A program made the translations under genes and the position numbers. Shown in pieces: positions 35,909-63,624 of a DNA stretch of 64,000 nucleotides (its first letter is position 1; every line of letters starts with the position of its first letter). The notes under the pieces were generated by a model, which did no database searches, was not told the DNA's origin, and worked only from the letters and a program-made list of their open reading frames with translations. The stretch covers positions 1 to 64,000 of the forward strand of contig CAJVGD010000036.1 of assembly GCA_910890315.1 (NCBI GenBank), given 5' to 3'. The DNA comes from Serendipita indica DSM 11827. Its lineage: Eukaryota > Basidiomycota > Agaricomycetes > Sebacinales > Serendipitaceae.

Positions 35909-37345
35909 ACAGTTACGCAGTCCCCAGCTCGCGAAATAGCCGATTCATAGAGGACAACAGCCAGACTGAACGTTGGGTATTGTCCAACTCTGGTCCAGAC
36001 TGACTGAGGTACCAGTAGCATATTCCTCGAGTGAGGGAGAGGGAGAGATTGGGATCCGGCCTGGTGGGGGTTTCTATTCACGGGCAACGTGTCGGAGTCT
36101 CCATTCCAGTGTAAGAAACAGAGCTTGGGAACCCTCCCGGATACGTTGTCAACTGGTTATGGCCGACATCTGACAGACGGCGGTTCTTGGTTGATGATCA
36201 AATTGTTTGGTCGTCTGTGGATTCTGTAGAATATAGCGAAATACGAATGCTATCTTGTAATGTGTGGCCTGCGAGTGGCGTGCGTGGTACCCCGAAATTT
36301 GGACTTCGCCAGAAGATCTAGACATCAACGCGTTCTGGGAGAGAGCTCGGTTGGTCTAGGGGACGCGATATCTTCAGATTCGTACTCTTCTCGTGCAAGA
36401 ACTCGTCCTCTTCGACTCGGCACGTCGCCAACATTGGGATTGGAAATAGCCACAGCGCAGTTTATCGGTACGTTGCGCACCCCCAGCTATCCAAATTATC
36501 TCCTGTTATGGACATGCTGACACTGTATCACGTGTGTAGAGCTACACTCGACGAGCGCAACATTCCTGGCCCCGCCTGCTGCTCAACGCCGATAACAGCA
36601 ACCGCCAGACGTCACCATTTTACATCGCTCTTGTTTATCCACGACTTAGAATCCATCTACACCTTTTCATAATTCACAGGTGAGCTCGTTGTCTCGCTCG
36701 CCGCAGCCTCTATGCACGTGTTCTCTCGCCATCAACATTGGCATTCGCTTAGTCTTATTACGCTCTCGTCGCCCCATTCAACGTTGGCCACTTTGCTGAC
36801 ATACCACAGATAACATGGCAAAGAAAAAGAAGGCAGCAGCAGCGAAGAAAGCTGAGGACGTCCCAACATCCACAGCCCCCACACCCGCCCTCGCATCACC
36901 AGCAGTCGAGAAGTCGCAGGAAGAGGCCTTGGGTGCCCTGATAAGCCAGGTTGACAATGCGGAGACACCAAATCCAGAACCCACTGAAACACCTGCGCCG
37001 GCTGAACCAGTCGTCGAAACTCCTGCTCCAGAGGGTGGAAATGAGGTGGAAGAAGGTGCAGCTGCAACCACAGAACCAGCACAGGAATCTGCAGCAGCAA
37101 AGAAGAAAAAGAAGAAGAAGAAAACGGGTGCTGGTGCTGGTGGAGGCGAGACCAAGGACGACGAGGCGCCTGTGGAGAATGCTGGACAGGAAGAGACAAA
37201 GGAGGAACCACCAGTTGCTCCTCAGCAAACTGAGGAAGAAACGGAAGCTGCGCGTCTCAAAGCTGAGGAGGAGGAGGCAGAGGCCGCTCGCAAAAAGGCT
37301 GAAGAGGAGCTTCTCGCATCTGTTGCTGAGCCGACTACAACCGCA
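35909..37345 (+). repeat. Direct repeat, left copy (promoter and 5' part of the coiled-coil gene)
   Basis: Matches 50993-52426 in the same orientation over about 1.43 kb with only scattered substitutions and one 3-bp in-frame difference (GAGGAGGAG against GAGGAG). It covers about 770 bp upstream, a 5'UTR intron (36680-36809) and the first ~175 codons. Homology starts at ACAG[T/C]TACGCAG on both sides and stops after ACCGCA. High identity indicates a recent event. Confidence 0.95.
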
Positions 37346-37480
37346 ATCACTCGTATGGACCATTGCCCGCGTAACGTACCTTGGTATGATCTCTGCCCCG
37401 ACTGCTTTCAAGCTCGGTATGTACATCGATCCACCCAGCCCGTCTGTCCCCAGCCATGTTCTAAATCCCTCGCAGTATGA
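36815..37480 (+). CDS. Truncated, chimeric copy of the coiled-coil gene
   Basis: Frame of 221 codons. The first ~177 residues (MAKKKKAAAAKKAEDVPTS onward, with a lysine run and Ala/Pro/Glu-rich stretches) equal the N-terminus of the 1627-residue protein at 51899. At 37346 the sequence switches to unrelated DNA that stays open for 44 residues, starting ITRMDHCPRNVPWYDLCPDC. Promoter and 5'UTR intron are complete, so transcription is plausible. It lacks all coiled-coil and C-terminal parts. Whether a stable protein is made is unknown; it may be a 5' gene fragment with an accidental frame. Confidence 0.55.
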   Translation: MAKKKKAAAAKKAEDVPTSTAPTPALASPAVEKSQEEALGALISQVDNAETPNPEPTETPAPAEPVVETPAPEGGNEVEEGAAATTEPAQESAAAKKKKKKKKTGAGAGGGETKDDEAPVENAGQEETKEEPPVAPQQTEEETEAARLKAEEEEAEAARKKAEEELLASVAEPTTTAITRMDHCPRNVPWYDLCPDCFQARYVHRSTQPVCPQPCSKSLAV

Positions 37481-37728
37481 CGAATTGTTTGCGAGTTTGA
37501 TTCTTCAATCGTCGCATAACATCGTCCCGCCCTCAAATTCACTATTTGATCGTGCCAATAGCAGTTCGGGTCGGGTTCCGGGCAGCTCAACCTCCCGGCC
37601 CATTCGCCGTCCACGCTCACGAAAAACATCGGGTTCCAGGCCGAGATCCACGGTGCCTACACCATCCGAACTCCTTGAAGATTGCTATCCTCTTCGCTTT
37701 GGGGACGGTGCACGTCGAGGCAGCAGGT
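37346..37728. other. Foreign segment between truncated gene and transposon end
   Basis: About 380 bp with no match elsewhere in the window. On the plus strand it can be read as two exons of an unidentified gene: one with MDHCPRNVPWYDLCPDCFQA (Cys spacing C-x9-C-x2-C) followed by a GTATGT donor near 37419, and one with YDELFASLILQ and a basic Ser/Arg stretch. It replaces what should be the left target flank of the transposon. Confidence 0.5.
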
Positions 37729-38862
37729 GCAGTCAGGCACGAGGCAAAACTGCGATCTTCCCCTAAGAAAAAGTACGCAGTTCTGCCTGTGATGACAGGG
37801 GCAAGACTGTAATGAGTTCAGGAGTGGCACCGTGTATATAGCTCGGTTATGTATGGCCTCGGCCTCCATTCTAATTTGATCTTGTGAGTTCAACAGCGCT
37901 AGTGAAAGGAGTTCACACCCACATCGGTAAGCAAGGGGCGGAACTCACGACCCAACCGGTGCTGCTCATCTGCTTTGAGTTCAGGTTTTCCCCATATGCA
38001 TTCACCAGCAACTGTACAAACCAGCTTGTGAATTCACGAGCAATTCCGGCAGGACTGTTGCTCCTTTGCTTGGCTCAGGGGCACTCGCGGAATTTGGCAA
38101 TTATTCACTCCCAAGTCGACCTGTGAGTCCACAGCAAGGTCAATATCTCCGAAGGAATTCACTAGCAGTTGTACAAGCGGTCAATGAATTCACACGCTAG
38201 TACGGCGAGGCCCATGGCCACAGGAACTCACTTGCCATTGTACAAACGACCATGAGTTCACGAAAGATATCGTGGACATGACATAGACAGATGCTTCTTT
38301 GGTAATTCAGGCAAGCCGGTGAAGTGTGCCGCTGATCACAGTCAGACAAACGGCCCATGAACTCACGGATAGCTGCGGCGGAGTTGACATACATGACCGC
38401 CAATCTTGTACTGAGAACAGCGGGCAAAGTGTAGCGCCAAAGAAATTCACTTGGAAGGGGACAAACGACCCGTGAATTCACATATAGGCACGGTGGAGTT
38501 GATATACATCACCGCTAATCTTGTATTGAGAACAGCGGGCAAAGTGTAGCGCCGAAGAAATTCACTTGGAAGTGGACAAACGACCCATGAATTCACGTAT
38601 AGGCACGGTGGGATTGGCATAAATGACTGCTATTCTGGGAATTCAGGGTGACCGGCAAACCATGCCACCGAAGAAATTCACTTTGGAAGTGGACAAACGA
38701 CCCATGAATTCCTGGATAGCCGTCTGGGGCTGACGTATGCACTACCTTCTTTGGTTAGCATTTTGAATGAACTCGCATGCGTCTTTGCAAACTGCTGATG
38801 AGTTCACGAATATTCCTGGCAGAATTTATGATTGCTACCGCAGTTCACTCAGGGTCATAGCA
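37729..38862 (+). repeat. Left terminal inverted repeat with subterminal motif array
   Basis: Inverted match to 49849-50984. Contains about eight copies of a ~40-bp composite motif, TTCAC, then a 19-22 bp spacer usually with ACAAACGACC, then TGAATTCACG, near 37999, 38154, 38223, 38343, 38442, 38557, 38673 and 38766. Spacing is mostly 75-155 bp; units 5-7 also share flanking sequence (AACAGCGGGCAAAGTGTAGCG). A probable set of transposase binding sites. The 80-codon frames inside are shadows. Confidence 0.9.
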
Positions 38863-38925
38863 GACATGTTCACCAGCCTGTCGGTAATATATTTCTTGAG
38901 TGCCGCGAAAAACTTCTCCCTGTCC

Positions 38926-39656
38926 ATGGATTTGACGCAATCCCTAGAGGAAGCTCGCACTGCGACTCAAGCAGGCCCGCCTCCTGGCGCTGAGCCATTT
39001 GACGATTCCAAGTTTTTTGATTATCAATTTCATGGACCTAGAGGTGTGGTGGTGCTGGAAAGACATGACACGCTTGCTAATAAATCCCCTTTTGTGCAGA
39101 TATCCATGATTACTGGAAACTCATTATCTCGGGTAAAAAATGGGAGCTTGTTTTTGCGCATTGTATTCATCGCTACACCGACATACCTGACGAGGCTTTG
39201 TCCCGCATCGAGAACTCGTTCAAAGAACTAGAACAACGACTCTGGAGCGATGCTATCCAGCTTGCACGCTGGTATTGTCAGTATTCGCGGCGAGATGAGA
39301 AAGAGAATTTCATTCGAACCATGGTCAATGGGTACCAAGAGATTGACCAAGCCCGCAGCTGGGTTAGGCGGCTTGACACCTGTTCCTTTGAGGAAAAGGT
39401 TCATTGTATGCTCGCAAGACATATTCATCACCCTGAGAAGGAGGTAGAGCAGATGATCAATCAGCTTCGCGAGGCCAGTTACCAACGAACCCAGTCGCTC
39501 TTTTCCGAGTTCCATATTGACGAAGACAATCATTGGGCTCTCAAAACCGATGAGGAGTTTTATGAAGATGGCTTAGATAGTGATGATATGCCCGTTTCGA
39601 ATGGGTTGAGCTCATGGGATGCTGACGAGCGCGCGTGTGTACCAAATGTTCTATAG
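38926..39656 (+). CDS. Transposon cargo gene 1, unknown helical protein
   Basis: Two exons, 38926-39043 and 39100-39656, joined by a 56-bp intron with a CTAAT branch site. Product of about 223 residues starts MDLTQSLEEARTATQAG, then FFDYQFHGPRDIHDYWKLI across the junction, ELVFAHCIHRYTDIPDEALS, LARWYCQYSRRDEKENFIRT, and a charged tail. No known domain recognised; predicted mostly helical by composition. It starts 64 bp inside the left inverted repeat, so the repeat likely supplies its promoter, and lies just upstream of and co-directional with the KDZ transposase. Frame is intact. Confidence 0.7.
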
Positions 39657-40564
39657 AGCATGAAATGCAACTGTTTGTCGTGTAAAAGTACCGAGGAAAT
39701 CTAAATACATTGGTTACTGCAAATACCGCACGCTTACTTGCACCTGCCCGTGCCGAGCTAAAAGAATGTCTTCTGTCGTTCAGCTTTGGTCAAGTCGTGC
39801 GACTACTTCTCTTAGCCATATAGACGTGAATAGGCGTCCCAATAGACGCAAGAAATCGCCCACAAAGGCAACACCAGACACTCTACCTGATTCCCTCCGG
39901 TTCGACCATGATGATGGACACCAGCAAATGGATCTCGACATCACAGAACAATCAATTCTTCCTAAGTGTCATACTGCCATGCCAAGAAAGAAGGTACGAG
40001 CTATGAAATTAGTTCTCAGATCATGCGTCGCTCAGTTGAGTAGAACCAACATACCTTTCTTCATGACTGGATCCCCCGTGCTGATGAATATCTGTCTGCA
40101 CTCCTGGATTACGAGTCATTGGCGAATACGAGTCATTGTCAGTGTGGTTCTGGAATCCCCGCTGCGTTTCTTTGCACGAGCTGTGTCGCACCATGCGTCT
40201 GCACTCAGTGTGTAGTGACCTCTCATGCAAAAACACCGTTTCATAGGATCAGAAAGTGGAATGGACTCTTTCTACAAGAGACTTCTCTTGCCGAATTGGG
40301 TCTGGTGGTTTACTGTGGACACGGCGGTCATCCATGTCCAAACTCGACTACTCCAACAAGGCTAATAGATCTTCATCTTGATGGATTTCACCCCTTACGA
40401 ATCTCCTTCTGTGGCTGTGATACGGCTCGAGCAGCTGATATCCAGTTATTTCAATCCCGAATGTTCCCAGCCTCGGTGGATAACCCGAGAACAGTATTCA
40501 CATTTGAAGTACTGGAACACTTCCGCATACTGAATCTCGAGGGAAAGGGGAGCATTCATGCATA

Positions 40565-42107
40565 CAGTTAGCCCAAAAACTGTTCACACCGCCACCTCGG
40601 CCGCCTTGCTACCCCTGTATCGCTCGTATTAGTTAGTCTAAATCTATGTAAAGGTCATTTGAGTATACTTCAGTATCTTTTTTATATCTGAAAGAGATGT
40701 CAAGAGTTTAGAAACTGTGTAGATCTAGAAATCGAGGTACAAAAAGGGAGACTCTCGTGAATAGTTTTTGTGCATTTTGTGACACACCCCTAGATCACGT
40801 GAATTAGAGTTCTAGCAGCCTTGTAAACAGTTACAAATAACGGAATGAGATATATAAGGGTCATTAGAGTCATTGGTATGTCGCTATCACATCATGTCAC
40901 CTCTCTCCAAGCAGAAACAGCTCGAACTTCGTCATCTGCTTTTGGCGGGCAAATCCTACTCGTCTATTAGCAAAAGTCTTGGTATTGCACCTCCAACTAT
41001 CTCAAAATATAAGAAGAAATGGGATTTGGAGCTTACCCATAAGCCTGGTGGCCGTCCTACCAAGGTTTCAGAGCGTACTCGGAGTGCAGCCGTGCGCCTG
41101 GCACTTGGCAGCAAGACCTATACTGCCAGGAGAGTAAAGCAAGCACTCGGAATCAACATCTGCACACAGACAGTCCGTAATGTGCTCAAAGAGGAGGGGC
41201 TTAAGGCCTATGTCAAGGTCAAGAAGCCCTTACTTACTCGGAGGCACATGAAGGCTCGTCTTGATTTTGCCTACAAGTACCGCCACTGGACTCCTGAAGA
41301 CTGGGATCGAGTTATATTCTCAGATGAGACCAAAATCAATCGATGTGGCTCTGATGGGAAGAAGTGGTGTTGGAGGGAGAAGGGATCCAAGCGACAGCAG
41401 CATCAGCAGACGAGCACAGTCAAGCATGGAGGAGGCCATGTGATGATATGGGGATGCTTCAGCACGTCTGGACGAGGAAAAATGTGCAACATTGATGGTA
41501 TTATGGATGCTGAGAAGTATGCTCGCATCCTTGACCAGAATCTCCTCGCTTCAGCCCGCAGCCTTCGACTCACACACGAGGAGGATTCATCTTCCAGCAG
41601 GACAACGACCCAAAGCACGCCTCAGCAACAGCTCGAGACTGGTTTGAAACTCATGAAATCAGACTTCTTGACTGGCCTTCTCAGTCCCCCGACCTCAATC
41701 CGATCGAAAACCTGTGGAGAGAGCTCAAAATGATTCTCAACGATTATCCCACCTGGCCGAGCAGTATAGACGAACTAGTGAGACGAATTGAAGTGGAATG
41801 GGGGCGTATATCAAAGGAGAAGTGTGAGAAGTACATTAGAACTATGCCCAATAGACTGGAGGCGGTAATTAGGGCGAAAGGGGGTAGCATTGACTATTGA
41901 ACAAAAACTATTCACGAGAGCCTCCGTTTTTGTACCTCGATTTCTAGATCTACAGCGTTTCTGAACTCTTAATATCACTCTCAGATATAGATAAGATACT
42001 AAAGTCTTATAAAAAGTCCTATACATAGATTTAGACTAACTATTACGAACAGTACAGGGGTAGCAAGGCGGCCGGGGTGGCGGTGTGAACAGTTTTTGGG
42101 CTAACTG
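40565..42107 (+). mobile_element. Tc1-like (DD34E) DNA transposon nested in the KDZ transposase
   Basis: Perfectly bounded 1543-bp element: inverted ends CAGTTAGCCCAAAAACTGTT at 40565 and their complement ending at 42107, matching over about 55 bp with one or two mismatches, flanked by TA on both sides (40563-40564 and 42108-42109), the Tc1/mariner target duplication. Carries one transposase frame on the plus strand. Confidence 0.95.
40894..41900 (+). pseudogene. Tc1-like transposase, one frameshift
   Basis: Starts MSPLSKQKQLELRHLLLAGK, a helix-turn-helix (SISKSLGIAPPTISKYKK), a second with TARRVKQALGI, then catalytic FSDETKINRC (first Asp) and VMIWGCFSTSGRGK. In the next frame come FIFQQDNDPKHASATA (second Asp) and SQSPDLNPIENLWRELKMI (Glu), ending KGGSIDY at 41900. 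The switch lies near 41580. Spacing fits DD34E. Given the intact ends it could still be moved by a related enzyme acting in trans. Confidence 0.88.
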
Positions 42108-44666
42108 TACACCGAAGCTTTATGTCGTCTCACTAGCAGTCGTGATGGAACAAGCAATATCCCGGTGGGTGTTTGGTGCTGTATGGAAGGGATTTCTCAC
42201 CGATTATTATAGGATCGTGTGAGAGAATTCAGACGTGTTGCTCGTCAATGGAGTTATTTAATAGCACGAAGGGACTCAGGCGTCTATGGAACCAGAACAA
42301 GCCACTCGTCCCAATTATGCTCAAAATGTCCCGCATGCCCACAGCCTGGAATAAACGTCGATGAGAATTGGCAGGAAACAACACCAGAAGATAAGTGGTA
42401 CGACGCCTTGCCATGCTCTAATATCTGACTAATTATTTTTGGATTAGGTGGCTATTGCGACGATATGTTCACTTTGGTGCAAACTTTCGCCTGGCCCTAT
42501 CAAAGCAAGAAAAACGATGCTCACTTGATACAGCATTGTGGATGGATGGTGGATTCTTTGCTGATCCACAACAGTATCGTGATTATTTGTCAACTGTGAG
42601 CACGGTTCAACAAGAGGTGAGTATATTCGGTCTTGCTATCCCGGTCTCACTTAGTGGCCAAGACTTCCGACTGCTCAAATTATCGTGCTGTTTCAAACAT
42701 ATCACGGAGCCGATTCAATAAACTTGAAGTTACTGGCATTGCGGGAGCCGTTTGTAGGCACGAGTGTGCAATTCCTCAAGGATTTGTTGACTTGTTCAAA
42801 GGCGAGCGGTAAGTGACCATCTCTCCAGTCATTATTAACTGTAATATATTTCCGAATCAGCTACGTCAACTCGGACTTTGCAATTTCACGTATTGTGACC
42901 CAAATGAATGGAATCCGGGATGTCGCCCTCACCTATGACATAGCCTGTCAATACAGCCGCAACTTCCAGAGACGATTTGATTCACTAGCCGCCTTTCTCC
43001 GGCTACCACCGCATTTGCGAATCATTTTTTTGGTTCCCAAATTCCATCTTCCAGCCCATAAAGAAGCATGTCGTTATCAGTACTCACTCAATTTCTGCAA
43101 GAATGTTGGACGCACAGATGGGGAAGCTATTGAGCGCTTCTGGAGTGCCCATAACTATCTCTCTGGCAGCACGATGCGCACGAGCCCATGTTCCCGACAA
43201 GATGCCCTCAATTTCCACTTCAACTACTGGAACTGGAGGAAAACACGCAAGATGGGTGGGTCGCTCTCTTCGGATTGATACTGGGAGCTAACTATGTGAA
43301 GGCAAAACGCTACTAAAGCGTCTTCAGAATGCACGAGAAATGCTTGTTCAGCATACAATCCTCCTTGCTGACCTACGAGATAGTGTGGGGGTTGAGAAAT
43401 CCACGGTATGAGCACGCTTCCCCACAGGCTTCTCACTGGAATGATCTTAGGTATGGTCACAACTAGAGGACAACTACATGATAAGGCAGGGTGAACACAC
43501 CATTTATCAAACACTCGCAGATCGAGGTGCGTTGCCTTCTCAACAAGAAATGCCACTAAGCTTCTGTAGCTCCAACGCGGTTACAAGTTTTGCAGAGATT
43601 AACCCAATTCAACAATGATCTCCAGCCGTTAGGAGCTGAAGATGACAATCGTCCAGCAATGGTGCTTTGGATCAACGACGGCCTTGAAATTGAAGAACAG
43701 CAGTCAGTCCTTACTTTATATTTCTAGAAGTAGTCTTATATTACCACCAGAGCACGACTAATTGTACTTATACAATCTACCATTGGTGGAACGGAGCGTC
43801 AGTTGGTGGAACTCAACCGGAAAAGAGCCAACCTCAGCGAGAGAATAAATGCATGGAAGGCAAGAGCTCCGGATAATGGGCAAGATGATGGTGACGATGA
43901 GCCTACACACAATCCGGAATTACAGAGGCTTATGTTGCCATCTCAGCTGCCATACCACGACCAGAATGAAGAACTTCGGCGGATTGAGAAAGAGCTTCGG
44001 GAAGCTCAGGCCTTCGACTACCTACGTGCTCTCAGAACCAGCCTTGCGGAGAAGATTGCACTGGTGCGTGACAAGGAAACAAACCAACGTGGAAATCAAG
44101 CGAATGCACGAGCACGTTCAGTAATTGATCGTGTTCAGATGCGTATCGACTTTGAGGCATCCAGATATCGCGTTTCATTCAGTGCTCTTCAGAGACTTGG
44201 TGGAGTGGATAATGTGGAGCTCATGCCACTTGCCCCTCAGGACGTTTCCATTGCTAATGTCTTCCGGTTTACATGCGACTTAGAACGTGGCTATAATACT
44301 TCAACATCCTGGATTTGGCGGCGACACGCTGTAGGAGAACAAGCAATGGACAATGACTGGTTAAATGAATGTGAGTTCTGGTCGCATCTGTTTCGAAATC
44401 TCATGTCATTTTTAGTCCTCCGAGTTCGCTTTCTAGAGGCAAAGGTCAACCATGATCGGTGGAAGGAGGAATGCGAGCTTGTGCGTGTGGAGCTTGGATA
44501 CACATATCGCTCATTTCGTCACTGGCAATGGGAATGGATCCAGAAGGCACAGCATAGTCAGGTGGCTGGCGAGGTTGCACATTCTCACCTCATGTCGCAT
44601 CTCTATGCGATGTTGGCCCATGAGGTGGGCGAGATCATTGTTCAAGTTGATCATGGTGGAGCATAG

Positions 44667-45609
44667 TAATACAAACTTGTGCACTTGAATCGTAACATCA
44701 TACTCTGGGTAATCCAAATAAGCTCTCCAGTTTGAAATCCAATGTCGAGATGCCTAGCCAACAGAGTGCTGACTATGGTCAATATGAATTCACAAATCAG
44801 TGAGCCTGAACAAATTTGAAATGAACTCATGTTGCAACATTTACAAGGCCAGGATGAGCGACGACCATGAGCTTCCAAACCATGAATTGAATACTTGAGT
44901 ACTTAGTGCTTCTCCCTATATCCACGAATACTCGAAACAAGCAACAAGTTAATTTGATGTGGAGATCGCATTTGATAGCACTTGTCACGCAGTGGCAGAG
45001 TGGCAATGCAAAGGAGCGGATATAAATTGTGGAGATTTGATCGTGTTTACCTCATTCTGTTTGCTTACTGCTCTGTCTGAGACTTTTTGTTCATTGTCTA
45101 GGTGCAATTATTACACAACTCCACGATATGTCGACAGAACTGAACTGCAAGATATGCATCAAGCTGAGATCGCTTGATTCAACACTTGGTTTCATATTCT
45201 TCCGCATACTATTTCCACCTTTTTTTTGCCTTATATCGGGCATGGGATGACTGTCGTTGCGAGTTGAGCATAAAAATGAACAGTTCAGTCAAATTGCATT
45301 AGAGCCTATAGGCCACGGGTGGTGTTAGAATTCAGATAATTATACACTAAGATCTATCTTATGTCATTTAGAGAGCCATTTATGTAGTCCATGGTCCTTG
45401 TAATGTCTAAAGCGGGATTTTCTGGAGCCAATATCACTATTTCTTTGGGGAAATCTGGATTGGCGAAAGAAAAGTGCAAAACAAGCATTTTAATTTCACT
45501 TTTACGTTGAATGACAGAGACGAAACTGCGAAATAGTATCTCCTTAGCGCTCCAGGAAGCCGCCAAACTTATTGGCCCACGCAACTCGTCTCTCTTACAG
45601 ATGGAGATA
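44667..45609. other. KDZ element interior, no gene
   Basis: A/T-rich sequence between the transposase 3' end and the HSP70 fragment; no supported frame. Confidence 0.5.
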
Positions 45610-46255
45610 TGTTAGGATAGACAAATCAGGTATTCCTGTGGCTTCCTCATTGCATACTTCCCATAGCAACCCTTGGGATAGGTGGAGAACATCTCAAGCT
45701 TCTCGGTTGGGACGGCGGTGTTGCATGTGATGAGAGTGGTCATGACACCACCAGGAGTCTCAATGTCAGTGGAGAGTGGGGCCATATTGTGAAAGAGAAT
45801 CTCCTGGGTCTTCTCCGAGGTGTCACCCGAGGGTATGATAGCATGGACAGTGGCACCATAGACGACGCGTGATGGCCTAGTCTGGGTTGATGCTCTTGTT
45901 GGCCTCCTTGCTGTTGAAGAAGTCAGAGACGATACATGAGATACGGGTCGAGCCACCAAAGAGGTCGATTTTATGGACGTTCGACTTGTCATTCCGCAAG
46001 TCTCTTAAGGCCTTCTTGACCAGGTCGTGGGTACCGCCATAGAAGAGGTCATAGGAAAGCCCTTTGAAATGAGCATGGATAATGGAGGTGTGGAAGTCGA
46101 TGCCCTCAAAGAGCGGGTCAATTTCGATGGTGGTCTGAATGGGCAGCCGAGGAGAGGGTGCGCTTCGCACACTCGCAAGCAGTATGAAGACGGCGGAGGG
46201 CACGAGCGTTCGAAGAGAGATCCTTCTTGTGCTTGCGCTTGAATTCTTGGACGAT
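45610..46255 (-). pseudogene. HSP70 fragment carried in the transposon
   Basis: Minus-strand pieces correspond to the second half of the HSP70 ATPase domain and start of the substrate-binding domain. Readable: [14 protein letters not shown] near 46240, [35 protein letters not shown] (cf. VLVGGSTRIPKIQ), NKSINPD, then in a shifted frame [20 protein letters not shown] and [20 protein letters not shown]. It corresponds to roughly residues 240-420 of a cytosolic HSP70, with at least two frame changes and many substitutions, and no introns. It sits directly behind the 3' end of cargo gene 2. Host-derived sequence captured by the element is the simplest reading. Confidence 0.85.
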
Positions 46256-46276
46256 CACAAGAAACAGGTAGTATGA

Positions 46277-49033
46277 TTATTTTATGATACGTACTACCCC
46301 ATCCGACACGCTTAGTCCCACTGGTTGCTTCTGGCGCTCCGAGCGACGCAGACTGTCAGGATCGGGAGGGTCAAGTTTCCGTTTCTTCCTCAGCGGTTTG
46401 CCAGAACTTGTGTCCGGGTTCTTTGCACGTCCGAGATGATATTTTGACTTGTTGAGAGCTTGTGGCCGATCTGTAGCTATTGTTCTGTCAGGCATGCCAC
46501 GAAAATATAAGGGACAAATACCTTGTTCAGTTGGAGGTGGAACCTTAGTCGACGGAGGTAACCCACGAAGTTCAGCAAGGGGGCCCTGAGAGACATTCCG
46601 AGGCTGCAAATCAGAGGACTGAGATGGCCCTGGGACTTGTAAGTATGGATGGATCGGCCCTGACTGCACAACTACGAGACAAGATGGTGAGATCATGCTA
46701 AAATGAGGCCACAACGCACCAAAATCATCAATCAAAGATGGTCGAGGGGTGTCTGCCAGTGGTAGCGGCGGCCAAGTGGGCGACTCTGTCAAGAAAAGAG
46801 GTGTTTTCAGAGAAGACGGCTCCTCTGAATTGAGATTTGGGCGCGTTTCATTGTCGCTGTTGTCCACTTCATGTGGTGTGAGATTGGCGAACACAATCCA
46901 GCAGTGACGCACCATTACCAAACTGCTTAATCGCGAGATTCTTGAGGGTTTGCTTGAAGATCATACCATGTTCCCATGTTTCATTGCCGCCATCCTGAAT
47001 GTCAGCAAACCAAGTGAGCCACGCGTCAACAACCTGCTTGCTAGGGCAACTCGTCTTATAAAAAGGAAGTTCGGGAGGTAAAATCTTTCCCGCTTCATCT
47101 TTTATCTTTGGAAAGTAGTCGGAGTATGCAATCTGCGTGAGATGGCGCGAAATTCTCTTCCATGGTATTGTCGGAGCCTCAAGCTTGCCATCCTTCATCA
47201 TTGGACGCATTGCGTCTCGGCGACTTGCTAGAATACAACATGAGGTACATTTCGACTATCCAACTGTTCACTCACCGTAACGATCTGAGATGAGAAAGCG
47301 CAGGATTGTGCGTCCCAGGTGAAGATTTGGATACCTGGGCATACCTGGACGTATGTTCTCGATGATTCTGACTCCCTCGCGCTCTCCAATCGAGGTGAAA
47401 TCCCCCTCCTTGCTTGTGAAGACCGTTGTGTGGGGAGCGTGACGATCCTCCTGTGGATTGACCTGAGTTTCAACTGCCTTCTTCGACGCCTTCTCCCGAG
47501 GCCTCTTTTTTTCTGCAATCAACTCGCGCTCAATCGCATCTACAAGCCATTAGAGCAATTATTGTCTCTCGCCAAACGTACTCATGTCCTCCTTTGCCTG
47601 GTCTTGATACAATTGGTTTGCATATCCTTGGAAGCTTGCGTTTACTAGACGCCAGACTCGCGGGTCAGCCTTGGATTGCCAGTCCACCCAAGACGGTGCA
47701 CCATCAGGCTGAATAGCAATCCTATGATATTAAATATCAGTAGATATTTATGGTTCGAAATGCAAGTCTTACATCTTTGCTTCAGGAGGCCCGCCGTTGG
47801 CATCCGGGATCCAAATGACAGCGAGAGATGGCCAGTTGAAAGCCGAGTATGTATCGCGAACAAGCGAATGCCATTCACTGTTGACGAGATCGCGCTTATG
47901 CCTTACAAAGTCAGAATGATCAATAACAAAACGAGTCACTTACTGAGGTGTCATTAGTACAAATGTCTTCTCAATTTGCGAGAAGAGGGTCGTAAAATTC
48001 TCCCATGCCTTGATTTGCGATCCGTCCAATGGAAATTGCTCCTTCTGCTTCATTCTGCGGGCAATAATAGAGCGGATCTCGTCCGTCACTTCATCTCTGT
48101 ACTTCTGCGCCACGTAGTTGATTTTCTGTGCGTTATTTCCTGCATGAAAATCTTTCCACAGCACCTGGGCACTTCGCTTTGGAGGGGCGAATGTATTTTG
48201 ACGTCGCGAGAAGTCCACACGATGACGACGGGTGATGATATGAATACCGGTTGGATTCTCAAACCCGCTGGGATCGCTTTTGTTGGTGTCGCTACCAGCA
48301 TTGCTGTCGGAGTCAGTCTGTGCATCCTGATCCTGCAAGTCTTCGGCGCTACGAGGGTCAAACCATTGCTCCTCATCCTCTGACGAATCCGTGTTGCGGT
48401 CACTGGCGGCGGCCCCGTATGATGTGGGAGGCGAATTGAGACGTTGCAAGTGCCCGCCAGGAGGATGAGCATCGCTAGACATTGGAAGGGGGTTATGTTC
48501 GCGTTCGTGAGGGTCGTGCGTTTGGGCGACTCTGGTCTCCTGACCGGGGTGGTGATGGGCAAGTGGTGAAGGGATACCCAAACTGGTGCTACCATGTCCC
48601 TCGTAGTATTCAACCTGGCGGTACCCAGCGGAGATACCTCCTACTGATTGGGGGAGTGTTGGGTAAGGATCTTCGTGATAATATCCAGCAGCGGTAGGAT
48701 CGGCGGGAGTGGGCTGGGTAGACAACGTGGTATGGAGATTGTGGTAATGGTGGCCCGAAGTACCGGTGCTCTGCAAATTATGTGCTTGAGCGGTGGAGTA
48801 CGGCGGATACGACACCTGGGCAGCTTGTGATCCATGCTGCAGGTAAGATTGATGACCATACTGCGTCTGATAGTGATTACTCCACGTTGTCTTGTTAGCA
48901 ATAGCAACCATCTTTTTCATGTTGGTCGTGAGCCATTCAGGAGGAAACCGTCGCAATTACATACCGGCTGGTGGAGTGCTCTATGGTCATTGTAGTACTG
49001 AGACGGGAGTTCTTCATGCACAGATTCGTCCAT
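46277..49033 (-). CDS. Transposon cargo gene 2, large unknown nuclear-type protein
   Basis: About eight exons can be joined without a frame break. Exon 1 starts at ATG 49033 (MDESVHEELPSQYYNDHRAL); exon 2 from 48890 gives a Tyr/His/Gln-rich region (SNHYQTQYGHQSYLQHG), an acidic stretch, then QVLWKDFHAGNNAQKINYVA and WENFTTLFSQIEKTFVLMTP. Later exons: LVNSEWHSLVRDTYSAFNW, PSWVDWQSKADPRVWRLVNA, KEGDFTSIGEREGVRIIEN, YSDYFPKIKDEAGKILPPEL, VDAWLTWFADIQDGG, and a Pro/Ser tail with KPLRKKRKLDPPDPDSLRRS, a likely nuclear signal, ending at 46277. Roughly 780 residues. No known domain recognised. Intact in an element whose transposase is broken; could be an accessory DNA-binding or regulatory protein, but that is inference from context. 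Confidence 0.7.
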
Positions 49034-49313
49034 AGGATTCGGAGGGTACAGTGATATCGTGAACACAGACCAAACTGGCATCGGTCTTAAATATGGGGCC
49101 TTGTATTGACATCGGATACACTAGAAATTATAATAGGAATTTTCCAGATCTGAAGGAGGCTAGTCCCAATTCTGGGTATGCAGAAGAAATGGTACTTGTC
49201 GTGGCATGTCCATGCGTTTGATGTCAAAGCGCCATAACTACATGACAGGTAAATATCTCATGTAGATTTATAGTCTGTCCCACATCATCCGACTTCTCCA
49301 ATCGCTGGGTAAT

Positions 49314-49511
49314 ATGACCAGCAAGCTTCGAGCGCTCTCAGACCCAGAACCAACGACATGCCCAATTTGCATTCGAGTGTTCAGTACAGTCTCAAGCATG
49401 AGAAGACATTTCAAGGCTATTAATCCCTGCTGGCTCAAGAAGGAGTCCAAGAGAGCTACGGCAAAGAAGCAACTGAGGAGTGCAATAAATCATCGATATT
49501 ACATCCGGTGA
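49314..49511 (+). CDS. Small C2HC zinc-finger ORF inside the transposon
   Basis: 65 codons: MTSKLRALSDPEPTTCPICI, then FSTVSSMRRHFKAINPCW and a basic end KKESKRATAKKQLRS. C-x2-C-x12-H-x6-C fits a C2H2-like finger with Cys as the fourth ligand. It may be one exon of a longer gene or an isolated DNA-binding peptide. Located between cargo gene 2 (divergent) and the right inverted repeat. Confidence 0.4.
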   Translation: MTSKLRALSDPEPTTCPICIRVFSTVSSMRRHFKAINPCWLKKESKRATAKKQLRSAINHRYYIR

Positions 49512-49848
49512 GGCTCCTTTGAAAGATTTCCAGCCATTTCTGATGAATAGAATCAGACATCAGGATGTAATTCTGGAGAATCGCTCAAGAAACCCACGTG
49601 CTTAATTCATAGTACGTGGATATAATTCCAACTAGGCTTAATCGCCTTAAAATATTCCATATATCTATAATCTATCGATTAAGCAAGTAATTCGTCTGTG
49701 TTCAATTTTTGTAAACCAACTGGTGGCAAATCTCTACCTGTATTCTTGAGCTCATGACAGGGACACAGTATCGGTTGTGAGTTCCGCCAAAGCAGTCCGT
49801 TAATTTATATATCAGTTGCCAAATGCAATAAATATTTGATTGCGAGGC
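49512..49848. other. KDZ element interior, no gene
   Basis: A/T-rich stretch up to the inner end of the right inverted repeat; nothing recognised. Confidence 0.5.
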
Positions 49849-50984
49849 CCGCTATGGCCCTGAGTGAACTGCGGTAGCAATCATAAATTCTGCCAGGAAT
49901 ATTCGTGAACTCATCAGCAGTTTGCAAAGACGCATGCGAGTTCATTCAAAATGCTAACCAAAGAAGGTAGTGCATACGTCAGCCCCAGACGGCTATCCAG
50001 GAATTCATGGGTCGTTTGTCCACTTCCAAAGTGAATTTCTTCGGTGGCATGGTTTGCCGGTCACCCTGAATTCCCAGAATAGCAGTCATTTATGCCAATC
50101 CCACCGTGCCTATACGTGAATTCATGGGTCGTTTGTCCACTTCCAAGTGAATTTCTTCGGCGCTACACTTTGCCCGCTGTTCTCAATACAAGATTAGCGG
50201 TGATGTATGTCAACTCCACCGTGCCTATATGTGAATTCACGGGTCGTTTGTCCCCTTCCAAGTGAATTTCTTTGGCGCTACACTTTGCCCGCTGTTCTCA
50301 GTACAAGATTGGCGGTCATGTATGTCAACTCCGCCGCAGCTATCCGTGAGTTCATGGGCCGTTTGTCTGACTGTGATCAGCGGCACACTTCACCGGCTTG
50401 CCCTGAATTACCAAAGAAGCATCTGTCTATGTCATGTCCACGATATCTTTCGTGAACTCATGGTCGTTTGTACAATGGCAAGTGAGTTCCTGTGGCCATG
50501 GGCCTCGCCGTACTAGCGTGTGAATTCATTGACCGCTTGTACAACTGCTAGTGAATTCCTTCGGAGATATTGACCTTGCTGTGGACTCACAGGTCGACTT
50601 GGGAGTGAATAATTGCCAAATTCCGCGAGTGCCCCTGAGCCAAGCAAAGGAGCAACAGTCCTGCCGGAATTGCTCGTGAATTCACAAGCTGGTTTGTACA
50701 GTTGCTGGTGAATGCATATGGGGAAAACCTGAACTCAAAGCAGATGAGCAGCACCGGTTGGGTCGTGAGTTCCGCCCCTTGCTTACCGATGTGGGTGTGA
50801 ACTCCTTTCACTAGCGCTGTTGAACTCACAAGATCAAATTAGAATGGAGGCCGAGGCCATACATAACCGAGCTATATACACGGTGCCACTCCTGAACTCA
50901 TTACAGTCTTGCCCCTGTCATCACAGGCAGAACTGCGTACTTTTTCTTAGGGGAAGATCGCAGTTTTGCCTCGTGCCGGACTGC
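49849..50984 (-). repeat. Right terminal inverted repeat
   Basis: Complement of 37729-38862. Differences include one extra G (about 50395) and a substitution four bases from the CAC of the outer end. The same subterminal motif series is present in mirror order, ending with the outermost GTGCCGGACTGC at 50984. Confidence 0.92.
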
Positions 50985-50992
50985 CATAGGTG

Positions 50993-52426
50993 ACAGCTAC
51001 GCAGTCCCCAGCTCGCGAAATAGCCGATTCATAGAGGACAACAGCCAGACTGAACGTTGGGCATTGTCCAACTCTGGTCCAGACTGACTGAGGTACCAGT
51101 AGCATATTCCTCGAGTGAGGGAGAGGGAGAGATTGGGATCCGGCCTGGTGGGGGTTTCTATTCACGGGCAACGTGTCGGAGTCTCCATTCCAGTGTAAGA
51201 AACAGAGCTTGGGAACTCTCCCGGATACGTTGTCAACTGGTTATGGCCGACATCTGACAGACGGCGGTTCTTGGTTGATGATCAAATTATTTGGTCGTCT
51301 GTGGATTCTGTAGAATATAGCGAAATACGAATGCTATCTTGTAATGTGTGGCCTGCGAGTGGCGTGCTTGGTACCCCGAAATTTGGACTTCGCCAGAAGA
51401 TCTAGACATCAACGCGTTCTGGGAGAGAGCTCGGTTGGTCTAGGGGACGCGATATCTTCAGATTCGTACTCTTCTCGTGCAAGAACTCGTCCTCTTCGAC
51501 TCGGCACGTCGCCAACATTGGGATTGGAAATAGCCACAGCGCAGTTTATCGGTACGTTGCGCACCCCCAGCTATCCAAATTATCTCCTGTTATGGACATG
51601 CTGACACTGTATCACGTGTGTAGAGCTACACTCGACGAGCGCAACATTCCTGGCCCCGCCCGTTGCTCAACGCCGATAACAGCAACCGCCAGACGTCACC
51701 ATTTTACATCGCTCTTGTTTATCCACGACTTAGAATCCATCTACACCTTTTCATAATTCACAGGTGAGCTCGTTGTCTCGCTCGCCGCAGCCTCTATGCA
51801 CGTGTTCTCTCGCCATCAACATTGGCATTCGCTTAGTCTTATTACGCTCTCGTCGCCCCATTCAACGTTGGCCACTTTGCTGACATACCACAGATAACAT
51901 GGCAAAGAAAAAGAAGGCAGCAGCAGCGAAGAAAGCTGAGGACGTCCCAACATCCACAGCCCCCACACCCGCCCTCGCATCACCGGCAGTCGAGAAGTCG
52001 CAGGAAGAGGCCTTGGGTGCCCTGATAAGCCAGGTTGACAATGCGGAGACACCAAATCCAGAACCCACTGAAACACCTGCGCCGGCTGAACCAGTCGTCG
52101 AAACTCCTGCTCCAGAGGGTGGAAATGAGGTGGAAGAAGGTGCAGCTGCAACCACAGAACCAGCACAGGAATCTGCAGCAGCAAAGAAGAAAAAGAAGAA
52201 GAAGAAAACGGGTGCTGGTGCTGGTGGAGGCGAGACCAAGGACGACGAGGCGCCTGTGGAGAATGCTGGACAGGAAGAGACAAAGGAGGAACCACCAGCT
52301 GCTCCTCAGCAAACTGAGGAAGAAACGGAAGCTGCGCGTCTCAAAGCTGAGGAGGAGGCAGAGGCCGCTCGCAAAAAGGTTGAAGAGGAGCTTCTCGCAT
52401 CTGCTGCTGAGCCGACTACAACCGCA
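50993..52426 (+). repeat. Direct repeat, right copy (intact gene 5' region)
   Basis: Right-hand partner of 35909-37345, continuous with the complete coiled-coil gene. Eight bases (CATAGGTG) separate it from the transposon end. Confidence 0.95.
51764..51893 (+). promoter_or_regulatory. 5'UTR intron of the coiled-coil gene
   Basis: GTGAGC donor after ATTCACAG and a CCACAG acceptor 5 bp upstream of ATAACATGGC, the start codon context. The same intron is at 36680-36809 in the truncated copy. Inferred from splice signals only. Confidence 0.6.
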
Positions 52427-55400
52427 GCCAAGAAGAAGAAGAAAAAGGGCAAAGCTGCTACGCCGGCCGTCGAGAGTCAAGTCCAGTCGGCCGTCATGTC
52501 ACCCACCGACGAGAACCCACCTGGAGTTGATGAAGGTCAAGGTTATTTCGCTGGTGGCACCACTCAACAAGAACCCGAATCTGCCCCTCAGCCGGAGCCA
52601 ACAGTCCAGCAAGACTCTGTCACCCACGATGCACCTCCAAAGTCTCCAGCTCGCTCGACTCGTGGCCTGGATCCGACTTCACCAACAAACGATACATTTC
52701 TCAACGCTGGGAATACTGCTGCACCTCGCTCTCCTCTGCGTTCCCCAATCAAGGACGCCTTTGCGGACTCGACAGACGCACCACCTATAGCTCCTCGCTC
52801 TCCGCTCCGCTCACCGGCACCATTAAATCCTGAGCACGCTCCTCCAAAATCTCCACTTCGATCGCCGCTCAAAGATACCTTTTTAAACTCTGGAGACGCT
52901 CCACCTCACTCACCTGCGCGTTCGCCACAAAGATCGCCTCGTCCACTTCCCCAAGCACCGCTCCCGCCCTCTAGTCCACGTATTCCGCCTCTTCAAACTT
53001 CAATGCAGTCCCCTGAGAGGGGTCCTGGACACCCAACCCAAGGGCCTCCTTCGCCCGTCAACCGGCGAGAGCCTCAGCCGTCTCATGGATTTGGCTCGCC
53101 AGCTACGCCGCGCGACAACAACCAATCACCCCGTGGATTCGACTCTAATCCTCGAGGGAACTCGCCAGTCAGACAACGTGGGCCTCCTCAACAAGGGCTC
53201 GGTGGGACGGGTGCTTGGGGAGCGTCGCCGGCCAGACAACGCGAACCTCCTCAGCAGAATCGTGGCTTTGGGTCGAGTGGGTTCGGAAACGATTCTCGTG
53301 GTGGAGGAGGTGGATTGGGCTGGGGATTTAGCTCTCAGCCAAAGCCGGCGCCGGCGCCTCCACAACAGACCAATTCTGGTGGGTTTGGCTTGGGTGGGTG
53401 GCTTGGAAGCGCGGCGACGTCTCTCTTTGGCGGATTTGGCGGCAATTCCCCTCCGCCCCCTGAGCCAAAGACTGGATTTGGCTTCGGTAGTTTGGGCGGT
53501 TCGCAACAGGGCGCACGAACACAGTCTAAACGTACATCGTTTGACAATTATGAAGACCCGTTCAGGACACCCAGTCGGTTTGAGGACCCATACAAACAAC
53601 CTCAGCAGTGGGAGGATCCATTCGCCAAACGAGGTGGACGTAATGCTCGGGAACAGCAGCACGTCTCTCCAACGTCTCCTACGGACCGGAGGACTGGATT
53701 CGGTAGTCTTGCCAACGCTCAACCCCTCTCAGCTGCAACGCCGACCCGTGTCGAACCAGAGCCAGAGCCAAAGCCAATCGTAGCACCTCAACCTGAACCT
53801 ATAACGGTTGCGCCGGTGGCTCCAGCTGAGCCTCCTGCGTTCACTGTTACAGAAGATCCGCACAAAGAGGGCGGACATGCCGCTACCGAGCAGCCCAAGT
53901 TTGACGCTTGGTTCGACCCTCCACCACCGGAAGATGAGGAAGAGGTCGCCGTTGCCGAAAAATTCTTGGGAGAGCAGCTCGACCCGAGTTTCCGTCGAGA
54001 CAATGTCGATTTCCAAGAGGTTGGCTTGGACGGTGGAGATGCTGCCATGGAACTTGGAAGAACGCCCATGAAAGCTGCGGCGGTCGAATTGCCCAAGTCG
54101 CCCTTCATCGGTGGTGGTGCCAAAATTGACGAAGTGGACCCTTGGGCGACACCAAAGAGTACAGCAGGTGTGGCGTTGCCAAAATCGCCGTACCTTGGTG
54201 CAGGAACGATTGACGGTGCACCACGATCGCCTGCCCATGTAGCAAACGATCTCGAAGGTCCACCAAAGTCTCCTCGTATTGCGCCGAGTCGGGCTCGTAC
54301 CCCACTTCCCGAGATTCCAATGACTGCGGAGATTGTAGACCGACCCAAGACGCCTGTCGTGGTTGATGATCCACCGCCACCGCCAGCAGCAGAACCCGTC
54401 GCTCCAGAGCCTCAAACGCCAGTCGAGCCTCTTGAAGAGGCGTCGAAGCCCGGTGCCAAAAAGAAGAAGAAGAAAAAGGGTGCCAAAGCCAAGGAGGAAA
54501 CATTTTTGTCTCCCGAGACCCCAGCTGGAGAGGATGAGGAGAAGACGCTCATGCAAGAGCGCGCCGAGCTCGAAAAGAAGAAAAAGGAGGAAGAGGAGCG
54601 TGCCGAGGCGGAACGTATCGCCGCTGAGGAGAAGGCTGCTGAGGAGCGTCGTCTTGAGGAAGAGCGTCTCGAACAGGAGAGAATTGCAGAGGAACTTGCT
54701 GCTGAAGAAGCACGGCTCAAGGCTGAAGAGGAGGAAAGAATCCGACTTGCTGAAGAAGAGGCTCGTCTCGAGGCGGAACGCGTAGCAGAAGAGGAAGCAC
54801 GTATCGCTCGCGAGAAACTTCAGGAGGAGCAAGCCCGTGCCGCTGCACGAGAAGCTGCCATGATCGCTGCCGTCGAGGCTCGTCGCGCCGCCGAAGCCGA
54901 AAAGGAAAGATTGGCCAAGGAGGCTGCTGAAGAGGCAGAACGGCTCGAAAAGGAGCGCATCGAAAAGGAGGAAGAAGCTCGACGTGCTGCAGAGGAGGCG
55001 GAACGGCTTCGGAGAGAAAAGGAGGAAGAGGAAGAGAGGAATAGGAAAGAAAAGGAAGAAGAGGAGAAACGTCGCGCGAAGCAAGAGGCTGCGATGATCG
55101 CAGCTATTGAAGCACGTAGAGAAGCCGAGGCTGCAAAGGCACGCGAGTTGGCAGAGGCCGCAGAAGAGGCGGAAAGGGCACGCATTGCAGAGGAAGAGGC
55201 TCGAGCGGCGAGAGAGGCCAAAGAAAAGGAGGAACAAGAGGAAAGAGAGCGTGAAGCTGCGATGAAGGCGCGACGGCAAGCGTTGGCAGCCGCTGCGTCG
55301 TTTGCGGCTATCGAGGCCAAACGCGCGGCAGATGAGAGAAAACGCCTCGAAGAGGAACGCAAACGGTTGGAAGAAGAAAGGATTCGTGCAGAAGAGGAGG

Positions 55401-56782
55401 AGAAACTCCGCGCAGCAGAGGAAGAACGTCGTTTGGCACACGAGCGCGAGGTTGAAGCAGAGTTGGCTCGCATCGAGGCGGAGCGTATCGCCGAGGAGGA
55501 GCGTATCGAAGCCGAACGTCTCGCTGAAGAAGAGAGATTGCGCATCGAACGCGAGGAGGCAGAGGCTAGACAGGCAGAAGAGGATCGACTGGCATTCGAG
55601 GCCGCAGAAGAGGAAGCACGCAGGCTTGTCGCCGAGGCCACTGCAAAGATTGAAGAGGAGAGAAGATTGCAAGAGGAAGCAGAGGCGGAGGAGAAGCGAC
55701 AGGAAGAGGCCAGACTCAAGGCCAATGCAGAGGCCGAAAAGCAGCGGAAGAGCGAAAAGAAGAAGAAACGCAAGCAGGGCAAGGACGATGCTGCTGCACG
55801 GCTGGAAAAGGAGCGCAAGGATCGCGAGGAAGCGGAGCAACGCGAGCGTGAAGAACGCGAGGAGCAGGAGAGACTCGCCCTCTTGGAGGCCCAGAGACTC
55901 GAGGCGGAGAACCAAGAGATGGAACGTATCGCTCGCGAGCTGGAAATTGCCCGATTGGAAAGAGAGCGTATCGCGCGCGAAGAGGAAATCCGCCGTCTCC
56001 AAGAAGCCGAGGCTGCACGTTTGGAGCAAGAGCGACTCGAGCAAGAGAGAATCCGGCTTGAGGAAGAAAAGGCCGAACGAGAGCGCCAGGAGGCTGAGCT
56101 CGAAGCCCAGCGCATCGAAAATGAGCGTCTGGAGCGTCTCCGCATCGAGGAAGAGCGGCGTCTAGAGTTGGCACGCTTGGAACAAGAGAGACTGGAGGAA
56201 GAAGCCAGAAGACACGCCGAGCGCGAGAAACAGCGATTGGCCGACGAGGCGCGCGAGTTGGCTGCCAAACTCGAAGCTGAACGAATCCGGCAGGAAGAGG
56301 AGAGACGCGAGGCCGAGAGACTGGCACAGCTGGAGAAGGAGCGCGCGGAGCAAGCGGCGGCACAGGCTTCCACCAACGAGCGCGAGATTACTTCCAAGGA
56401 TCTTGAAGACCGCTTCGCTACTCTGCGGTTATCACGTATTCGCAAGACGGACTTGTGGCTGAAGATGCCGGAACCGGATCAGGCGGAGAGTGATGCGCCC
56501 AGCGCGCCTTCAAGTCCTCGGTCTGGTGCGAGCATGAGTCCAGTTTCGAGTGATTTGGACGAGGCGAGCGACTTGGGCCAGCCGCCGGATAGCCCTCGCT
56601 TTGACCCAGACTCGCCACTTCCAACGCGCAAGATTGTGTATCCAGTTGGGGATCTGAGGCAGCTCAAGGACTTTGGCATGAATTCGACGCGGTCAATTGC
56701 GAGTAGCGTCGCTCCAGTCGCACCGTCAAGTCCGCCCCGTCAGGCAACACCCTTGTTGTTGATGAATGGGACGAAGCGATGA
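51899..56782 (+). CDS. 1627-residue disordered and coiled-coil protein
   Basis: Single uninterrupted frame. Order of regions: Lys run and Ala/Pro/Glu-rich N-terminus (1-180) with a second KKKKKKGK patch; repeated RSP/KSP units (about 240-350, e.g. APRSPLRSPIKDAF); Gly/Phe/Pro-rich segment (400-560, e.g. FGFGSLGGSQQGA); KSP repeats again (740-810, LPKSPYLGAGTID); then from about 880 to 1500 a nearly pure Glu/Arg/Ala/Lys coiled coil (trichohyalin-like); and a Ser/Pro-rich end with DLEDRFATLRLSRIRKTD. No enzyme domain. A structural or scaffolding role, possibly regulated by proline-directed kinases at the many SP sites, is inference. The long frames on the opposite strand here are mirror images of the biased codons. 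Confidence 0.85.
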   Translation: MAKKKKAAAAKKAEDVPTSTAPTPALASPAVEKSQEEALGALISQVDNAETPNPEPTETPAPAEPVVETPAPEGGNEVEEGAAATTEPAQESAAAKKKKKKKKTGAGAGGGETKDDEAPVENAGQEETKEEPPAAPQQTEEETEAARLKAEEEAEAARKKVEEELLASAAEPTTTAAKKKKKKGKAATPAVESQVQSAVMSPTDENPPGVDEGQGYFAGGTTQQEPESAPQPEPTVQQDSVTHDAPPKSPARSTRGLDPTSPTNDTFLNAGNTAAPRSPLRSPIKDAFADSTDAPPIAPRSPLRSPAPLNPEHAPPKSPLRSPLKDTFLNSGDAPPHSPARSPQRSPRPLPQAPLPPSSPRIPPLQTSMQSPERGPGHPTQGPPSPVNRREPQPSHGFGSPATPRDNNQSPRGFDSNPRGNSPVRQRGPPQQGLGGTGAWGASPARQREPPQQNRGFGSSGFGNDSRGGGGGLGWGFSSQPKPAPAPPQQTNSGGFGLGGWLGSAATSLFGGFGGNSPPPPEPKTGFGFGSLGGSQQGARTQSKRTSFDNYEDPFRTPSRFEDPYKQPQQWEDPFAKRGGRNAREQQHVSPTSPTDRRTGFGSLANAQPLSAATPTRVEPEPEPKPIVAPQPEPITVAPVAPAEPPAFTVTEDPHKEGGHAATEQPKFDAWFDPPPPEDEEEVAVAEKFLGEQLDPSFRRDNVDFQEVGLDGGDAAMELGRTPMKAAAVELPKSPFIGGGAKIDEVDPWATPKSTAGVALPKSPYLGAGTIDGAPRSPAHVANDLEGPPKSPRIAPSRARTPLPEIPMTAEIVDRPKTPVVVDDPPPPPAAEPVAPEPQTPVEPLEEASKPGAKKKKKKKGAKAKEETFLSPETPAGEDEEKTLMQERAELEKKKKEEEERAEAERIAAEEKAAEERRLEEERLEQERIAEELAAEEARLKAEEEERIRLAEEEARLEAERVAEEEARIAREKLQEEQARAAAREAAMIAAVEARRAAEAEKERLAKEAAEEAERLEKERIEKEEEARRAAEEAERLRREKEEEEERNRKEKEEEEKRRAKQEAAMIAAIEARREAEAAKARELAEAAEEAERARIAEEEARAAREAKEKEEQEEREREAAMKARRQALAAAASFAAIEAKRAADERKRLEEERKRLEEERIRAEEEEKLRAAEEERRLAHEREVEAELARIEAERIAEEERIEAERLAEEERLRIEREEAEARQAEEDRLAFEAAEEEARRLVAEATAKIEEERRLQEEAEAEEKRQEEARLKANAEAEKQRKSEKKKKRKQGKDDAAARLEKERKDREEAEQREREEREEQERLALLEAQRLEAENQEMERIARELEIARLERERIAREEEIRRLQEAEAARLEQERLEQERIRLEEEKAERERQEAELEAQRIENERLERLRIEEERRLELARLEQERLEEEARRHAEREKQRLADEARELAAKLEAERIRQEEERREAERLAQLEKERAEQAAAQASTNEREITSKDLEDRFATLRLSRIRKTDLWLKMPEPDQAESDAPSAPSSPRSGASMSPVSSDLDEASDLGQPPDSPRFDPDSPLPTRKIVYPVGDLRQLKDFGMNSTRSIASSVAPVAPSSPPRQATPLLLMNGTKR

Positions 56783-57108
56783 CTGAGGGTATGTGCCATT
56801 GATACAATGTCGATCATTGCTGACGAGTTGGGTAGACGACGGGATTTTGACGTGGACGCTCTGAGCTTGTGCATTGCTTTCATTTATTGAACTATGGCTG
56901 TGTATGATTACTTGCATTCTATGACTTGGTTCCCTGTTGAGCTCTTTGATGAACCTCGACCACTTGATCGTGTCGCGAATCTTGAGTTCAAACATGGGCC
57001 ATGAATAGCTCGTTTATCGCCATCACATCGATTCTGATCGTCTTTGTGTGCTGACATGGTCAGGCGGTGCCTCTGACTCTTGGCTCCCTACGCCTCCGAG
57101 AGGGACTG
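56783..57108. other. Intergenic; includes upstream part of the duplicated GTPase unit
   Basis: The segment from about 56870 (TCATTTATTGAACTATGGCTGTGTATGATTAC region) recurs in altered form near 60735 and, in part, near 62200, marking the start of the duplicated units. Confidence 0.6.
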
Positions 57109-63388: not shown

Positions 63389-63624
63389 CCCCGTGCATCC
63401 GCCAGGTGTCCGCTGGTGAAATGAACATGGATGAACGGACTGATTTGAAAATAGATTTGGGACGTTGGCGTTGATTGGATGTGGGCCTTGCAATGCCTGC
63501 CTGATCTGTCCGCAAAGAAGCTCGCGACTGGCCGAAGGAAGCTAGAAGCCTAACCGCTTCGCGCACCCCATCATTTCGGGGGTTGTGATGGACTGGTACA
63601 ACTTGAACCTCTCCCCGTCTTTCA

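Follow-up and report, generated by a model that had tools for sequence, protein, structure and literature searches.

The window analysed here comprises 64,000 nucleotides of the basidiomycete Serendipita indica DSM 11827 (assembly GCA_910890315.1, contig CAJVGD010000036.1, positions 1 to 64,000 of the forward strand). It harbours a transposon of the KDZ superfamily, delimited by matching its tips against other copies in the genome, which measures 13,272 bp, carries long inverted arms, contains a broken transposase gene and a second gene, is interrupted by a smaller Tc1/mariner element, and lies between rearranged flanks. Two further complete elements are found in the same genome, at C5:257841-270960 (13,120 bp) and C29:53502-66995 (13,494 bp), hereafter the C5 and C29 elements. 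The outermost 8 bp of the two ends of the window element are not inverted copies of each other, and are referred to as tag A and tag B. From left to right, the element is composed of the following features.

37721-50992, no strand assigned: whole KDZ element, with tips common to other copies
37721-37728, plus strand: tip tag B, CAGCAGGT, at the left end, beginning CAGC as do the B tips of the C5 and C29 elements
37729-38861, plus strand: left inverted arm, with 115-bp tandem repeats in 3.2 copies
39084-40565, plus strand: 5' part of the transposase gene, cut by Tc1 (N-terminal exon 39084-39656, CxC2 exon 40044-40565)
40565-42107, plus strand: nested Tc1/mariner element, with inverted repeats of about 212 bp and TA on both sides
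42213-44666, plus strand: remainder of the transposase gene (KDZ core and C-terminal part)
45679-46254, minus strand: remnant of a host HSP70 gene, decayed and with 79% identity to C40:770017-770587
46280-48956, minus strand: second gene of the lineage, in several exons with approximate boundaries
49266-49511, plus strand: small C2H2 zinc-finger-like open reading frame (ORF), without a match among the C29 ORFs
49851-50984, minus strand: right inverted arm
50985-50992, minus strand: tip tag A, CACCTATG, at the right end, identical in six of six pattern matches, those in the C5 and C29 elements included

The original prediction, made from the sequence alone, had recognised a KDZ transposon by its CxC2 and transposase blocks, and this identity is confirmed by Pfam, in which both domains exceed their cut-offs: the KDZ transposase domain (PF18758) with E 1.5e-36 and 126.6 bits against 26.6, and CxC2 with E 1.5e-26 and 93.1 bits against 27. 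A KDZ domain and a CxC cluster with the transposase, the features of the superfamily, are therefore both present. The same gene is found in the C5 and C29 elements, at identities ranging from 37% (N-terminal exon) to 76% (KDZ core exon of C5). In the window, the nested Tc1, whose own transposase match is divided between two frames, breaks CxC2 at profile position 95 of 107, and the KDZ core has lost its reading frame and acquired a stop between 42767 and 42862. The window copy is at present devoid of an intact transposase gene; its further movement would therefore need a transposase supplied from elsewhere.

The two arms (37729-38861 and 49851-50984) are 99.65% identical over 1134 aligned columns, with three substitutions and one gap. 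Inverted repeats had been predicted at these positions, with the element running from 37729 to 50984; the arms are real, whereas the true ends lie 8 bp further out on each side. The 8 bp of tag A, read inward, also form the tips of two partial copies, at C11 and C19, and a 14-letter pattern of the A end has six matches in the genome against two for a reversed control, three of the six being in complete elements and three at single ends. As for the B end, its outermost 18 bp have their sole exact genomic copy in the window itself; with up to three mismatches allowed, they match 20 places and the reversed control also 20, the window being the only exact one. The possibility that the left tip is merely truncated was considered and dropped, for the C5 and C29 elements show that the other end normally starts with CAGC.

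The arms are also rich in short motifs. Counting both strands, and hence the palindromic form twice, there are 14 occurrences of TGA[AG]TTCA in the 1141-bp left end, three in the 10,989-bp interior and one in window positions 1-35000. Along the same line, the 2038-bp left arm of the C29 element contains the motif TCTGTCAT 21 times, the interior of that element two times within 9800 bp, and window positions 1-35000 five times. By analogy with the Drosophila element Galileo, whose arm repeats bind its transposase (PMC3688188), the enriched motifs may be regarded as candidate transposase sites.

The KDZ profile has six matches at five places in the genome, and the CxC2 profile three matches at three places; three of the places are the complete elements. 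The C5 and C29 elements are 96.7% identical to each other (11,972 columns) and share with the window element the same type of ends and the same gene order, so that two other complete copies of this organisation exist within this genome. Their arms are longer than those in the window (1470 aligned columns at 98.6% and 1669 at 98.2%, respectively) and contain tandem repeats of 184 bp rather than 115 bp; blastn aligns the window arm to neither of them at E up to 1. Because these two related full elements also possess long, repeat-filled arms, this architecture is a trait of the lineage. Perfect 7-bp target duplications, the only fitting length among the 4 to 10 bp tested, lie outside the arms of both (CCTTCTT at C5, AACGCTT at C29), identifying the arms as transposon ends; the idea that the repeats arose from a local inversion, named in the original prediction as what would refute it, fails on the same evidence. 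Besides the complete elements, there are three partial copies.

C11: A end, second gene and HSP70 piece
C19: A end at 83% and transposase scrap at 81%
C5:313327: A end, with a relative of the second gene about 1.6 kb inside

A search of viral contigs with the KDZ exon returned six pattern stretches, with no relative among them. An additional inverted repeat (about 370 bp, 77-78%) lies between the two genes of the C29 and C5 elements, where it spans 1.7 kb (C29:59242-60928 and C5:263369-265051); one ORF tested in this region has no Pfam match.

The window element had been credited with its own cargo, in the form of at least three extra coding units and an HSP70 piece. The units do exist, and they turn out to be the nested Tc1 transposase in two frames, the second gene on the minus strand and the small zinc-finger ORF. 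The second gene, which is oriented toward the transposase gene, occurs in all three full elements, and for this reason it is a core gene of the lineage, not cargo. It is poorly conserved between the window and the C5 and C29 elements (27-39% identity), although C29 and C5 share 99% identity over its region. Its match to C29 has an E of 2.7e-11 in one search, and sensitive tblastn yields 1.6e-14 for C29 and 6.2e-8 for C5; relatives of its exons are found at C11, C29, C13:260k, C5:311k and C15:78k, as well as in the C5 element. No Pfam family was assigned to the window exons scanned, pieces of the C29 gene matching only below the cut-offs, and the first exon has no match to solved structures up to E 1. 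An accessory role in transposition may be envisaged for its product.

The HSP70 piece is likewise real, with two pieces above the Pfam cut-offs (E 1.6e-10 each). It is frame-broken, while its counterpart at C40 has an open frame of 590 amino acids, and it is otherwise seen only in the C11 relic, which carries a partly different stretch of the C40 gene. Identity to C40 is uneven, mostly about 70-87%, and the last two blocks (46150-46254) match at 55/60 and 45/45; C11 holds a 95% block from another part of the HSP70 gene. This unevenness looks like later conversion or repeated capture, to judge from the alignments. As to the zinc-finger ORF, its match is weak: the GAGA model scores 20.4 bits against a cut-off of 20.2, and C2H2 models remain below theirs. 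That the extra genes are accessory genes spread by the element, a view to which the joint presence of the second gene and the HSP70 piece in the C11 relic lends something, is accordingly very improbable, and it was rejected for most units: one is a nested insertion, the HSP70 piece is eroded, and the main presumed cargo gene is present in every full element. Within the element, about 155 bp (44955-45113) recur at C17, C1 and C14 (82-86%), perhaps as a small unrelated repeat.

The flanks of the window copy, whose rearrangement the original prediction did not mention, are made of a direct duplication of host sequence and of a piece of DNA related to another locus.

35909-37345, plus strand: left host copy, comprising the promoter and first part of a large gene and passing through the unoccupied insertion site at 35909-35915
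37346-37720, plus strand: C5-derived piece of 375 bp, matching C5:1787034-1787511 and ending exactly at tip B
50993-52426, plus strand: right host copy, starting at the element tip; the gene continues as ORF 51884-56782
50993-50999, plus strand: 7 bp at the right junction, ACAGCTA, presumed to be the target and corresponding to ACAGTTA in the left host copy

The two host copies are 99.0% identical, with 11 substitutions and one 3-bp gap. The 375-bp piece, found in the assembly only at C5 and in the window, shows no substitution relative to C5, one 4-bp insertion and one 105-bp deletion; at the third junction, it overlaps the host copy by 2 bp, CA. Capture of this piece from a cDNA was discarded: the missing 105 bp are part of an open, in-frame C5 ORF, bounded by CCTC and without GT..AG ends, and a genomic copy with a deletion fits the sequence better. 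The 4-bp insertion, at 37417-37420, turns TA into TAtgTA, which I take to resemble a Tc1/mariner excision footprint. In the left host copy, an open frame from 36800 to 37480 leads from the beginning of the large host gene into the C5 ORF, whose frame it keeps over a short distance, and a truncated fusion protein is a possible product.

Since the host copy starts at tip A, the C5 piece ends at tip B, and the third junction shows the 2-bp CA overlap, I lean, by a modest degree, towards a composite insertion resulting from one-ended or re-replicative transposition. The transposase would bind the repeated motifs in both arms and make cuts staggered by 7 bp at the CA/TG tips, presumably assisted by the conserved second gene. 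The A end would have inserted into a fresh target lying upstream of the large host gene, while the B end would have retained 375 bp of its old flank from C5:1.787 Mb; copying would then have continued for 1.4 kb along the target side, after which the broken ends would have been joined. Composite insertions that combine a transposon with old flank and re-copied DNA have been reported for maize Ac (PMC4270019). The likeness to Ac/fAc lies in the joining of old flanking DNA to duplicated DNA after the fusion of broken ends, and the Ac-like layers, duplicated target flank and presumed retained old flank, are present in order in the window, with no filled donor site seen. The maize process uses the reversed ends of two nearby elements; in the window a single element is visible, and the course of events would be the one just outlined.

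The main rival, to which I give an appreciably lower chance, is that the element inserted normally and that later the transposase cut its B tip alone, which was then repaired in an error-prone manner to an empty sister or other-nucleus chromosome, with C5 DNA as copied filler, so that C5:1.787 Mb would never have held the element. Such copying could give the 4-bp insertion and the 105-bp deletion, which lies between CCTC repeats, and both the empty C5 site and the 2-bp overlap at the host junction suit it. The filler stops exactly at tip B, however, a fact explained at once by a retained old flank, and filler repair also needs a clean tip cut. A third possibility is that an empty and a filled allele were wrongly joined during assembly. 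The host copies do differ from each other as alleles might, yet they have diverged at a rate not significantly different from the rate in the arms (P 0.11), which decides nothing, and mixing two alleles of the locus leaves the 375-bp piece, seen only at C5 and here, unexplained; an assembly error is improbable.

Taken together, the element is quite probably a cut-and-paste KDZ transposon with Kyakuja-like ends, belonging to a lineage with repeat-filled arms of more than 1.1 kb, and its copy in the window is, somewhat more likely than not, the product of an abnormal transposition. CA..TG tips are found in 3/3 complete elements and a 7-bp target duplication in 2/3, as in Agaricomycetes Kyakuja, which share the KDZ-type transposase as well (PMC12730594). 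Several observations weigh against this view. The window copy lacks a pair of flanking target duplications, the target-like 7 bp being on the right only; the C5 site is now empty, with no filled donor in sight; default tblastn missed the second gene in the C5 and C29 elements, which blastp and sensitive tblastn detected; and the arms exceed 1.1 kb in 3/3 elements, whereas the two described Kyakuja families have no terminal inverted repeats. Because of these arms, the element is filed, on its sequence features, as a KDZ element with Kyakuja-like ends and not as a proven Kyakuja member.

The comparison is with two Laccaria families, for which 7-bp duplications, CA..TG tips and no terminal inverted repeats are given as a description of those families, not as a definition of Kyakuja (PMC12730594); they carry a TET/JBP gene, and the present elements differ by arms of 1.1-1.7 kb. 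No TET/JBP match was found here, and 14 control genomes are equally silent, so that its absence is not thereby demonstrated. The 8-bp target duplications reported for Zisupton and for a Dileera family (Kojima 2025, PMC12730594) fit none of the C5, C29 and window elements, and this length was rejected. Cryptococcus KDZ1, KDZ2 and KDZ3 are likewise large (9.2-11 kb) mobile basidiomycete KDZ elements with inverted arms, but their arms measure 139-241 bp, CxC1 takes the place of CxC2, and their target duplications are 4-8 bp long (PMC12810828). Drosophila Galileo and Foldback-like elements resemble the present ones in their long arms with tandem repeats, 7-bp duplications and inter-arm exchange, and include twelve chimeric copies without matching duplications (PMC3688188, PMC3573991); Galileo, however, has a P-superfamily transposase with a THAP domain, a protein unrelated to KDZ, and no THAP match was obtained among the window ORFs scanned, the transposase here being KDZ. 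In a partial survey of titles and abstracts, which did not include the founding KDZ paper, no KDZ element with kilobase arms was reported.

The tips deserve separate consideration. All three full elements have a tag A tip (CACCTATGG) at one end and a tag B tip (CAGC...) at the other, the tags being 8-9 bp long. In the window, the two ends differ at 5/8 tip positions, against 3/1133 in the remaining arm; in the outer arms of the C5 and C29 elements, five columns are split by tag, all of them in the first 9 of 609. The C5 and C29 interiors are collinear, whereas tag A marks the second-gene side in C29 and in the window but, in C5, the transposase side. Between these two 97%-identical elements, in the one pair available, the tags are swapped relative to the interior. 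A flip of the interior by recombination between the arms accounts for the swap most simply, in what is one comparison among three complete elements; paired conversion of both tips is a less simple account.

A tentative proposal is that of an asymmetric-end rule, which requires tag A (CACCTATG) at one tip and tag B at the opposite one, while the arms recombine and flip the interior and selection keeps the AB combination. Recombination by RAG requires one 12 and one 23 signal, and the proposed A/B pairing may be likened to this need. With complete elements numbering only three, two of them 97% identical, there is not far from an even chance that the different tips are neutral instead, arm conversion fading near the outer edge and the tags having no function. 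Against neutrality, tag A is CACCTATGG in both families even though the other arm sequence has no blastn similarity at E up to 1, tag B keeps CAGC, and the C5 and C29 arms are alike right up to column 10.

Elsewhere in the window, two tandem arrays (4824-6697 and 15880-17580) have steps of about 126-129 bp at 88-93% identity, and in 57032-64000 one stretch is repeated in tandem at least three times, in diverged copies (68-88%) that probably represent a local gene family.

To sum up, the structure of KDZ transposons has so far been described only in part. The window copy appears to preserve an abnormal transposition in which the beginning of one gene was duplicated and part of another was relocated, and is as such a concrete example of a large fungal transposon able to reshape host genes. 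Should the asymmetric-end rule be true, an invertible interior with polarity-marked tips would represent a novel means by which a eukaryotic DNA transposon governs how its ends pair. If the features described here hold in other genomes, they would add to the KDZ superfamily a lineage with Foldback-like arms and conserved, unlike tips, in which end pairing is directly testable.

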